Part shown: one piece after another, positions 3,756-24,324 of the stretch
Position numbering within the stretch: the stretch's first letter is position 1
Layout of the letters: each line of letters opens with the position of its first letter
Assembly: GCA_030595055.1 (NCBI GenBank)
Contig: JAUVEB010000004.1
Span: 1 to 33,730 of the forward strand
Origin: Desulfuromonadaceae bacterium
GTDB lineage: Bacteria; Desulfobacterota; Desulfuromonadia; Desulfuromonadales; Geopsychrobacteraceae
Direction: 5' to 3'
Length of the DNA: 33,730 bases
Notes under the pieces: model-generated
Database searches by the model: none
Seen by the model: only the letters and a program-made list of their open reading frames with translations
Told to the model about the DNA's origin: nothing
Program-made: the position numbers and the translations under genes

Positions 3756-4271
3756 TCAAAATTTCAGCAGGCTGTAAACCTTGCCCTCCGGGAGTTTGCT
3801 CCGACCGTTGAGAAATTCTAGTTCCGCCATAAATGCACATTCATAAACCACCGCATCGAACTGCTCGACAAGTTCAACAACAGCCGCCATGGTGCCACCT
3901 GTTGCCAGCAGATCATCGGCAACAATCACCCGATCACCGGGTTTAAAAGCATCTGCGTGGATTTCCAGGGTATCCGAACCATATTCCAGTTCGTAACTGA
4001 TACTCCGCGTTTTATAGGGCAGTTTGCCCGGCTTACGAACCAAGGTGATTCCCGTCCCGAGCTTGTAAGCAAGCGCCGAACCGAGAATAAAACCACGTGC
4101 CTCAATTCCGACAATCTGATCGATCCTTTCCCCGATATAACGATGTGCCAGCAAATCGACCATCCGATGAAAACTTTTCGCATCCGCCAAGAGGGTGGTA
4201 ATATCTTTGAAAACAATACCTTTTTTCGGAAAATCCGGGACATCCCTGATAATCTTTTTCAATTGGTCCAT
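3756..4271 (-). CDS. apt: Adenine phosphoribosyltransferase
   Basis: [43 protein letters not shown]-binding motif. Confidence 0.95.
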
Positions 4272-4296
4272 TTCAAACTCCTTCTGACATGCCAGT

Positions 4297-4444
4297 GGTC
4301 CGTGCGGTTAATCGTGACGCGTAATTCTGAGACATTTTGATTGCTGTCAAGACGTGCCGATGAAGCCTGCGTTAAGCCAAAGAGGTGCAACGCAGAAGCG
4401 GGGAAAAGGGCCGGAATTAAAGGATAGGATTAGCCGCACGGGCC
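4297..4444 (+). repeat. Dispersed intergenic inverted-repeat element, copy 1 (MITE-, REPIN- or structured-RNA-like)
   Basis: Ends GGTCCGTGCGGTTAATC (4297-4313) and GATTAGCCGCACGGGCC (4428-4444) are complementary over 17 bp with two G.T positions; shares blocks AATTCTGAGACATTTTG, GCGTTAAG.CAA, GAAAAGGGCC.GAAT and AGGATTAGCCGCACGG with copy 2 at 23669-23825. Confidence 0.85.
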
Positions 4445-4445
4445 G

Positions 4446-5429
4446 TTAATCTTCTGTGTTGTCATCTGTCATTCGCTCTTCAAGTGTTTTACGTAACTTG
4501 GCAAGACTTTTCGCTTCAATCTGCCGGATTCTTTCCCGGGTCACGCCGAATTTCCGCCCAATGGTATCGAGAGTTTGCGGTTCACGGTCATTCAAGCCAA
4601 AACGCAACGAGAGAATTTCCTGTTCATTTTCAGAGAGTTCTTCCATCCACTCAAGCACGTGGGAGAAACGATCCAGATCCTCAATCACGCGACCCGGATC
4701 AAGCAGGTTTTTGTCCTCTATGGTATCGATAAGACTATAATCGCTATTGTCCCCCATCGGATGTTCGATGGAATAGGTTTTTTTCAGGAGAATCATCATC
4801 CGCCGCACATGAGCAACATCCGCGCCCATCGCTTCGGCAATCTCCTCAAACGAAGGGTCGCGCTTCAGGCGCTGAACCAGCTCGCGGCTGATCTTTATCA
4901 GCTTATTGATATCGTCCGCAACATGAACAGGAAGACGAATCGTCCGGCTCTGATTGACCAGGGCCCGCTCGATCGATTGCCGAACCCACCAGGTGGCGTA
5001 AGTTGAAAAGCGGCACCCCTTGCTGACCTTAAATTTCTCGACCGCCTTGATCAAACCCATATTCCCTTCTTCGATCAGGTCAAGAAAAGGCAGGCCACGA
5101 TTCATATAGCGTTTGGCAATTTTAACCACAAGGCGTAGATTCGATTCAATCATACGCGCCCGGGCCGCTTCGTCCCCTTGGGCAATCAAACCGGCCAGTT
5201 CCCGCTCACCTGCGGCTGTCAGCAGGGTGCTTTTCTGTATTTCCTTTAAGTACAGCTTGATGGCATCGGCAGCGACATAACCATCATCCGGATGGACAGT
5301 CTTTTCAGCAACAACCTTTTTATTATCTTTGGCATTTTCTGCCGGCTCGACTTTCCTGAATCCAGCCGGCTTCTGTTCACTGCCTGCCTGCTCACGACTG
5401 CGCTCAAACTCAGACAACATTTCATCCAC
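4446..5429 (-). CDS. rpoS: RNA polymerase sigma factor RpoS (group 2 sigma70)
   Basis: Sigma70 regions 1.2-4: [99 protein letters not shown]; located downstream of nlpD. Confidence 0.93.
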
Positions 5430-13111: not shown

Positions 13112-13220
13112 CTCACTTGCTCCTTCTCTCTAAATGGTTTCGGCATTTGCCGTGGCCGGATCTGCAGGGGGAGATCGTCCCCACAGTTCGCAGCCGAATC
13201 TACCTCAGTGGCAGACCGCC

Positions 13221-21866: not shown

Positions 21867-22517
21867 TCACATGAATCCGTTTTTGGCAAGGGACTCCAGA
21901 CTCATCCCGGCGTTGTTCTGCGGCGCTATCTTTCCCTGCAAAAGACGCTCAACATAACGGCCGATCAGGTCTGTTTCAATGTTGACCGCTGCTCCTTCGC
22001 GACAGTTTTGCAGGGTTGTCATAGCGAGAGAATGTGGAATAACCGCAACGGAAAAGCTGTTCTGTGTTACTTCGTTAACCGTCAAACTGATCCCGTCAAT
22101 CGCTACGGAACCTTTCATAACGATGTAACGCAAAGTTTCTTCAGGCAGCGCAAATTCAAAACGTACCGCGTTGTGCTCCTGGTAACGTTTACGAATCTTG
22201 GCGATACAATCAACATGACCACTGACCAGATGGCCGCCGAGCCGGTCACTCAAGCGTAAAGCCCGCTCCAGATTAACCGGCATATTCGGTCTCAAGCTAC
22301 CCAGGGTTGTACACGTCAAAGTTTCCGGTGAGACATCAACCGTAAAGCTGCCGGAGTCCCAGCTTATCACCGTCAGGCAAGCCCCATTCACTGCGATACT
22401 TTCACCAAGTTGCAGATCCCCCTTAGCCAGTTCCGAGACGATCCGCAGTTGAGCAGAATCTCCCCGTCGTTGGAGACTGCCGACCTTGCCGATTTCCTGA
22501 ATCAATCCTGTGAACAT
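21867..22517 (-). CDS. ribE: Riboflavin synthase alpha subunit
   Basis: [54 protein letters not shown]. Confidence 0.96.
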
Positions 22518-23617
22518 TTTTCCACATCCCCCGTAATCAGGATATCTTCGCCAACCTGTTCAGAACACAGCTCGACAAGTCGTACCGCGTTTATCAGCTT
22601 ATGACAACCCTCACCGTTAAAGATTCCGTACCGGGCAGAGCCACCAATCATTTTGGGGGCAACAAAGACCATCATCCGGTCGATCAAACCGGCCTGCAAG
22701 GCGGCTCCGGCCAAAGTTGCCCCACCTTCCAGTAAAAGGCGCTGAACATGACGACGCCCCAACTCTTGCCAGAGATGGGGCAATGATACGCCACCGGCAG
22801 ATTCAGGGAAAATCATCACTTCGGCGCCCAGCTGTTGCAATGCGGAAATTTTCTCCGGGTCGGCAACGGTTGTCGCAATAAACGTCGATGCGGAAGATTC
22901 TTGCTGCAGCATTCTACTGCTCAACGGAATACGCAACCGGCTGTCGACAACAACTCGCAGAGGATCTCTGCAGCTATTATCCGGCAAACGGGTGTTGAGC
23001 AGCGGGTCATCAGCCAGCAAGGTCTCGATTCCAACCATGATGGCCTCAACACGGTCACGCAACTGATGAACTCGCTGACGGCTCAGTTCTCCGGAAATCC
23101 ATTGCGAATCCCCGCCGGTCGTCGCCGTTTTGCCATCCAGCGTCATGGCGGTTTTATAGATAGTGAACGGGAACCCAGTGGTCAGGTGACGGGTGAATGC
23201 TGCAATCAGGCGACGACACTGTCGCTCCTGCACGCCGACGGCCACTTCGATACCGGCTTGACGTAATTTTTCAATGCCTCGTCCAGCGACCTGTGGATTC
23301 GGATCCTGCACACCGACAAAGACCCGTTTGATACCGGCAGCCACTAACGCATCGGCACAGGGTCCGGTTCGCCCATAATGAGAGCAAGGTTCCAGAGTCA
23401 CATAAACATCCGCACCTACGGCCTTTTCAGCGGCCTCCCTAAGGGCAAAAATTTCTGCGTGCGGCTCTCCGGCTTTGGGATGAAACCCCTCGCCGACGAC
23501 TTGACCAGCGCGAACAATAACCGCACCCACCGGTGGATTCGGTGCCGTTCTTCCCAGCCCTATCTCCGCCAATTTAATCGCCCGAGCCATAAATTGTTGC
23601 TGGATGCTGTCAGCCAT
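22502..23617 (-). CDS. ribD: Bifunctional diaminohydroxyphosphoribosylaminopyrimidine deaminase / 5-amino-6-(5-phosphoribosylamino)uracil reductase
   Basis: TAPNPPVGAVIV; GEPHAEIFALREA; VTLEPCSHYGRTGPCADALVAAGIKRV; start chosen at MADSIQQQFMARAIKL. Confidence 0.96.
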   Translation of the reverse strand: MADSIQQQFMARAIKLAEIGLGRTAPNPPVGAVIVRAGQVVGEGFHPKAGEPHAEIFALREAAEKAVGADVYVTLEPCSHYGRTGPCADALVAAGIKRVFVGVQDPNPQVAGRGIEKLRQAGIEVAVGVQERQCRRLIAAFTRHLTTGFPFTIYKTAMTLDGKTATTGGDSQWISGELSRQRVHQLRDRVEAIMVGIETLLADDPLLNTRLPDNSCRDPLRVVVDSRLRIPLSSRMLQQESSASTFIATTVADPEKISALQQLGAEVMIFPESAGGVSLPHLWQELGRRHVQRLLLEGGATLAGAALQAGLIDRMMVFVAPKMIGGSARYGIFNGEGCHKLINAVRLVELCSEQVGEDILITGDVEKCSQD

Positions 23618-23668
23618 CTGCGACTCCAAAAGCAACCGCTATAAAACTCGACAGCCGGAATACCGAGT

Positions 23669-23825
23669 GTCTCATGCGGTTAGTCGTGTCAATGAATTCT
23701 GAGACATTTTGGGTGCTGCCAAGGCGGTGCCAACGCAGGCCTAGCCATGCGTTAAGTCAAGTTGGCGCAACATTGGCAGCGCCGAAAAGGGCCAGAATCA
23801 GAAGACAGGATTAGCCGCACGGGGC
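23669..23825 (+). repeat. Dispersed intergenic inverted-repeat element, copy 2
   Basis: Ends GTCTCATGCGGTTAGTC (23669-23685) and GATTAGCCGCACGGGGC (23809-23825) pair; internal hairpin arms CTGCCAAGGCGGTGCCAAC (23716-23734) and GTTGGCGCAACATTGGCAG (23761-23779); related to 4297-4444. Confidence 0.85.
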
Positions 23826-23865
23826 ACTAATATATTCCGGCCGAAAAACATCTTTAGAAGCTGCT

Positions 23866-24324
23866 TTATTTAGAATGTTTCAACAGGTCGGTCAATTCGA
23901 CCATGAATTCGTTGATATCCTTGAACTGTCGATAAACCGAAGCGAAGCGCACGTAAGCAACCTCGTCGACAACCTGCAAGCTATCCATAACCGCTTCACC
24001 GATCAAGCTTGCGGCGATTTCCTTATCACCGCATTCCTGAAATCTCCGCTCCAGTCGATCAACCATTGCTTCAATCTGCTCAACCGAAATCGGTCTTTTT
24101 TCACAAGCGCGCTGCATCCCGGAGATAATTTTAGAACGATCGAATGCCTCCCGGCGTCCGTCTTTTTTAATCACCCAGGGAAGAATTTCTTCAACCCGCT
24201 CATAGGTGGTAAAACGTCGCTCGCAGGCCGGACATTCACGTCGCCGCCGTACGTTATTCCCCTCCTTTCCCAAACGCGAATCGACAACCTTGGTATCATC
24301 GTGTTGACAGAAAGGACATTTCAT
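23866..24324 (-). CDS. nrdR: Transcriptional repressor NrdR
   Basis: [17 protein letters not shown]...[21 protein letters not shown] Zn ribbon plus ATP-cone. Confidence 0.97.

Follow-up and report, generated by a model that had tools for sequence, protein, structure and literature searches.

The sequence that fills the gap between rpoS and apt in the window (the whole stretch of 33,730 nucleotides analysed here) is very probably, at about 93%, an IS630/Tc1-mariner-type MITE on which an IS630-type transposase acts in trans, as judged from sequence comparison. It would be a gene-less palindrome over its full length and would contribute no more than its ends; the IS630-family (Tc1/mariner-type DDE) transposase that recognises them would be supplied by a separate IS. 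The element would move by cut-and-paste into TA, with a strong preference for CTAG and with duplication of the TA, and no host function would be required to explain it. The first-pass annotation had already offered a MITE among its options, and this guess is supported by dispersed copies, terminal inverted repeats, TA duplication, an empty-site ortholog and IS630 elements with the same ends. The features concerned are listed in Table 1.

Table 1. Genes, putative MITE copies and target-site features in the window, in order of position; the + strand of copy 1 is the orientation in which the GAGACATTTT arm comes first.
Feature	Position	Strand	Remarks
apt (adenine phosphoribosyltransferase)	3756..4271	-	TIGR01090
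Copy 1, left TA target-duplication slot	4293..4294		CA by mutation; the G008 ortholog has TA
Putative MITE copy 1	4295..4446	+	152 bp, rpoS-apt gap; aligned with 139 other copies
Copy 1, left terminal inverted repeat	4295..4315	+	GTGGTCCGTGCGGTTAATCGT
Copy 1, right terminal inverted repeat	4426..4446	-	ACGGCCCGTGCGGCTAATCCT on the minus strand
rpoS stop codon TAA	4446..4448	-	TA duplication plus terminal base of the element; G008 and the empty G004 allele have TAG
rpoS-like sigma factor	4446..5429	-	NF004207/TIGR02394 best matches, below curated cut-off
Copy 1, right TA target duplication	4447..4448		bases 1-2 of the rpoS stop codon (minus strand)
ribD	22502..23635	-	TIGR00326
Stem-loop, loop probably received copy 2	23649..23843	-	arms at ~23649-23663 and 23832-23843
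Copy 2, left target-duplication slot	23665..23666		now GA
Putative MITE copy 2	23667..23827	+	161 bp, nrdR-ribD gap; alignment with family copies
Copy 2, right TA target duplication	23828..23829		TA intact
nrdR	23866..24324	-	TIGR00244

The two copies in the window had been proposed to be related on the basis of ordered blocks and outer arms, and indeed they show 73% identity across 148 columns. A search of the own genome with copy 1 as query recovers copy 2 at E=3.9e-19. The same search returned several closer relatives of copy 1, at 86-91% identity, and the genome holds ~11 full-length copies together with several partial ones, so that the description as a two-copy element has to be abandoned. 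The arms described at first are correct but the boundaries are not, the true ends lying 2 bases further out on each side. In the same way, the 17-bp terminal inverted repeats are real but form only the outermost part of a near full-length palindrome with ~55 matching positions per half.

The family as a whole is an imperfect palindrome of ~150-161 bp, with ends GTGYCCCGTGCGGTTAR and its reverse complement, and its inner ~80 bp are conserved across the order. Searching the own and related genomes, a check suggested at the outset, yielded many dispersed copies: the consensus query matches 65 of the 118 searched relatives (mostly of the same order), distributed over 31 of 50 genera. In an even sample of the phylum, 6 of 395 genomes have a match (E<=1e-6), all of them from the same order and the own genome included; the family occurs in none of the searched genomes outside the order, and the plasmid and phage collections gave no family match. 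The terminal-repeat pattern occurs at 38-54 sites in each of G079, G102, G024 and G008 and at 21 sites in G085; with the pattern reversed as a control, the count is 0-2. Full elements are also found in named records (Desulfuromonas sp. CSMB_57, Pelobacter sp. MAGs and Oryzomonas sp. MAGs), and recent multiplication is indicated in G079, G085 and G030 by copies that lie at separate locations and are 98-100% identical. A long frame runs through the element in only 2 of 119 copies. The first-pass annotation had asked whether the element might be confined to its two loci or belong to Rfam; many loci and no Rfam match were found.

Several particular arrangements were seen along the way. In G056 (L068, C1:1627800-1628350; L069, 3851250-3851750), a second palindrome of ~160 bp, AGGCTGTCGGACTATCC...GGATAGTCCGACAGCCT, interrupts the MITE at its central CTAG and apparently duplicates CTAG. 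A compound of ~260 bp made of head-to-tail partial copies is present in G072 (L070, C7:99500-100000), where one N at the junction points to a possible assembly join. A record labelled as a Chloroflexi MAG (L179, JADFVC010000295.1) carries the element in a flank shared with a copy of the own genome and is probably mis-binned.

Examination of the flanks defines the target site. Among the 140 distinct copies aligned with intact ends, both flanks are TA in 94, usually as part of CTAG, and 97 have equal flanking dinucleotides, compared with only 5-12 at outward-shifted positions. The base outside the TA is C at 239 of 280 ends, giving CTAG as the target, a context that accounts for only 0.9% of the TA steps of the window. 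Flanking dinucleotides are unequal in ~31% of copies, which we attribute to age. A 4-bp duplication of CTAG was considered first, most copies being flanked by CTAG on both sides, and was dropped for three reasons: the outer C and G on one side change without regard to those on the other (e.g. CTAG/CTAA, TTAG/CTAG), as they should if the TA alone is duplicated; the IS630 partners described below behave likewise; and duplication of TA within CTAG is known for IS630. The preference of IS630 for a TA that lies in 5'-CTAG-3' was described by Tenzen and Ohtsubo (1991, as cited in PMC2170065); ISY100, which is of IS630 type, inserts into TA and duplicates it (PMC2170065).

The rpoS-apt locus provides the only clean empty site obtained, and the empty-site ortholog, a kind of evidence whose inspection had been recommended, is informative here. 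Of the gene names first assigned, apt, ribD and nrdR are upheld by NCBIfam, whereas rpoS is a best match that reaches 345 bits against a curated cut-off of 394. In G004, which belongs to the same genus and has a 97% identical apt, the two genes are 23 bp apart, reading gat-TAG-CGGGTC with the full spacer CGGGTCTGAAGGAGTTTGAA followed by atg. The filled site of G008 reads gac-TAG-TGGCCC...GGGCCAC-TAG-CATGTC, with CATGTCAGAAGGAGTTTGAA as spacer after the second TAG, then atg. Filled sites show the TA duplicated at the rpoS TAG; in the window the stop is now TAA and the left flank CA. The comparison of the empty G004 allele with the filled G008 and window alleles therefore places the insertion at the TA within the stop codon (TAG) of rpoS. 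In most of the more distant relatives the rpoS-apt gap is short (<90 bp) and has no element. Copy 1 had been thought to start one base beyond the rpoS stop; in fact the stop itself consists of the duplicated TA and the terminal base of the element. The MITE entered the TAG of rpoS and its own first G took the place of the last base of the stop, leaving the protein unchanged.

This arrangement may extend beyond rpoS. Frames ending exactly at the TA/G junction make up 37 of the 56 long frames (long frames being counted here, not curated genes) that run into the element, against an expectation of 1/3 (p=6e-7). An enrichment of copies at native TAG stops, as at rpoS, is suggestive only. It is conceivable, if rather doubtful, that the family uses TAG stops as safe harbours, CTAG targeting and the terminal G together rebuilding TAG so that a copy can settle at the very end of a gene with the protein intact, and that it has in this way re-written operon junctions and 3' untranslated regions order-wide. 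The stop-restoring insertion at rpoS is a clean and testable example of a transposon spreading between co-directional genes without damage.

The second locus presents a different context. In several element-free relatives, the nrdR-ribD gap contains a short uninterrupted hairpin, which in G003 is CAGCCGGAATATGGTACATATTCCGGCTG with a TA in its loop; in the window and in G008 the element is located inside this loop. Copy 2 would have entered the loop of the pre-existing hairpin, whose arms in the window are still predicted to pair around the hairpin of the MITE. The ortholog of copy 2 is present in G008 and also in G004, where it is cut by a contig end. One may ask whether the MITE was later co-opted at both loci, rpoS-apt and nrdR-ribD, as a terminator, an attenuator or an RNA-stability element. 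The retention of both copies in G008 and the lengthening of a pre-existing hairpin by copy 2 are in keeping with such a role, which we nevertheless consider unlikely: copy 1 is decaying, with a central 6-bp deletion and altered ends, no T-run terminator was found on the gene strand of either gap, and other members of the genus do without the element. Relative to its ortholog in G008, copy 1 lacks 6 bp centrally and a further 1 bp. Between the own genome (G000) and G008 the copies diverge by 4-6%, which is below the fourfold-site divergence of most neighbouring genes; as evidence of constraint, this divergence and the central 6-bp loss of copy 1 are weak and mixed.

The orientation of the copies bears on any role in host transcripts. 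According to a longest-frame rule, 64 copies lie between co-directional, 36 between convergent and 19 between divergent genes, and at the 64 co-directional sites the strand of the element is random (33:31), which speaks against a general role of the hairpin in host mRNA. The shared orientation of the two window copies, and their position between a regulator and a nucleotide gene, to which importance had been given initially, are by the same count a coincidence. The first-pass annotation had also raised the option of a structured RNA, that is, a conserved cis-regulator or sRNA spread by duplication, with its hairpin selected as RNA. Both copies do fold strongly (copy 1, + strand, z -5.96; copy 2, minus strand, z -5.81, each against shuffles), two-sided changes affect 15 of 55 pairs, G-U pairs outnumber A-C mismatches on the oriented strand (837 vs 460, among copies that share ancestry), and copy 2 with its flanks differs between G000 and G008 at 7 of 188 positions vs 38 of 254 fourfold sites. 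Shared ancestry, however, inflates the covariation counts, no Rfam match was obtained either at the gathering threshold or at E<=1, neighbouring genes are inconsistent and most relatives have no element at the same locus. Together with the random orientation relative to host transcription, this leaves a selected RNA a very slight probability. In the same window, positions 13120-13195 of the minus strand match the Rfam L20-Deltaproteobacteria ribosomal leader.

The MITE reading calls for a transposase acting on the same ends, and looking for one had been part of the initial suggestions. Loci with the terminal repeat were examined for inverted pairs lying further apart, and full-length IS630-family elements with the same ends were found. 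A Desulfobulbaceae MAG contains an IS of 1146 bp (L226) with ends GTGTCCCGTGCGGTTAATCG and GTGTCCCGTTTGGTTAGTGC, flanks CTA/TAG and a 364-aa protein (P0001); Marinobacter salarius contains one of 1181 bp (L184) that shares the terminal 16 bp with 1 mismatch, has CTA/TAG flanks and encodes a transposase; and a third, transposase-encoding and with 1 and 4 mismatches in its ends, is found within the order (L247, G055). Further partner sequences are L248 (G094) and fragments in G109 and G017. Against NF033545, the NCBIfam equivalog for IS630 with a cut-off of 100, the L226 and L247 proteins score 279.9 and 285.7 bits; the partner transposases match DDE_3, with the catalytic D, D and E positions conserved in the 4 aligned. 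Furthermore, the similarity is not confined to the terminal repeat: in the left arm of the MITE, positions 17-45 match both ends of L226 (z 5.2 and 5.7 against shuffles). The inner ~80 bp have no counterpart in the ISs found, and the MITE is therefore not a simple deletion derivative of any of them. Such transposases would be the ones that move the MITE.

A cognate transposase usually, though not by strict definition, resides in the same genome as such an element, and MITE and partner IS do co-occur in G055 and G094. No IS630 transposase of the partner subgroup was found in the own genome (G000, an assembly 84.6% complete) or in the recent-copy genomes G079, G102, G024 and G085, several of which have copies that are 97-100% identical. 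In these genomes some copies lie <=~140 bp from contig ends; possibly the IS was lost in assembly there, or the transposase is gone. One candidate autonomous element, L153 (1862 bp, perfect ends), was rejected since it contains an HD-GYP/NosR-like gene and no transposase; this locus (L153:1007-2868, Geotalea toluenoxydans) has the gene placed like cargo between two MITE-like halves with intact outer ends. Remnants of other IS630-type transposase genes directly adjoin a MITE copy at L005 (G000:C150:21313-22055) and L246 (G030:C77). In Marinobacter (L174, L237, L184), MITE-like palindromes share their terminal repeat with the IS630-type element of that host; the two seem to form an independent IS/MITE pair.

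A different mover had also been envisaged, the element being in that case a REPIN or REP-type palindrome mobilised by a RAYT (Y1 tyrosine transposase). The element is palindromic and intergenic, and 7 of the 8 genomes tested do have Y1_Tnp genes. Its ends, however, are absent from the vicinity of 18 of the 20 Y1_Tnp loci; at the other 2 the ends belong to a MITE inserted at or within an IS200-type gene, in one case exactly at its TAG stop, and not to flanking REPs. That copy, L340 (G024:C34, ~35326), sits at the stop of the IS200-type transposase gene. Moreover, G102 has many copies and no Y1_Tnp match, and the TA duplication and IS630-type ends fit such a mover badly, leaving it next to no chance.

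With an IS630-type MITE as the preferred reading, it becomes possible to say what a repeat widespread in the Desulfuromonadales/Geobacter group is, what probably moves it and where it inserts, and intergenic 'structured elements' of this sort consequently need no annotation as regulatory RNA. ERIC and Correia/NEMIS are palindromic MITEs that are likewise spread lineage-wide in dozens of copies; they differ from the present family in sequence, hosts and cognate transposases. The IS630 family (IS630 and ISY100, within the Tc1/mariner superfamily) has in common with it the TA duplication and the CTAG preference, and the IS630-type ISs found here have inverted repeats with sub-terminal homology to the MITE; unlike them, the MITE has no transposase and an interior unrelated to theirs. 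A literature search for the terminal sequence strings gave no match, and we found no published description of the family; genome papers on Geobacter and Pelobacter, of the same order, report palindromic multicopy intergenic sequences (PMC2700814, PMC2996986, PMC3543383) that possibly include it, and their supplements may list it, neither family nor transposase being named in the parts of these papers available to us. Chunjie, a MITE of 178-235 bp from Geobacter uraniireducens in the same bacterial group (Chen et al. 2008, as cited in PMC10969869), differs in size range as far as that secondary description goes. A precedent for a short repeat with IS630 ends is RUP of Streptococcus pneumoniae, a repeat of ~107 bp with ends like those of IS630-Spn1 (PMC3049150): it too is a short folded repeat with many intergenic copies, for which an IS630-family transposase is the supposed mover, whereas the MITE described here is longer (~160 bp), has another sequence, belongs to another phylum and is spread over a whole order. 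The kind of element is already known, and the order-wide family is a new member of it.
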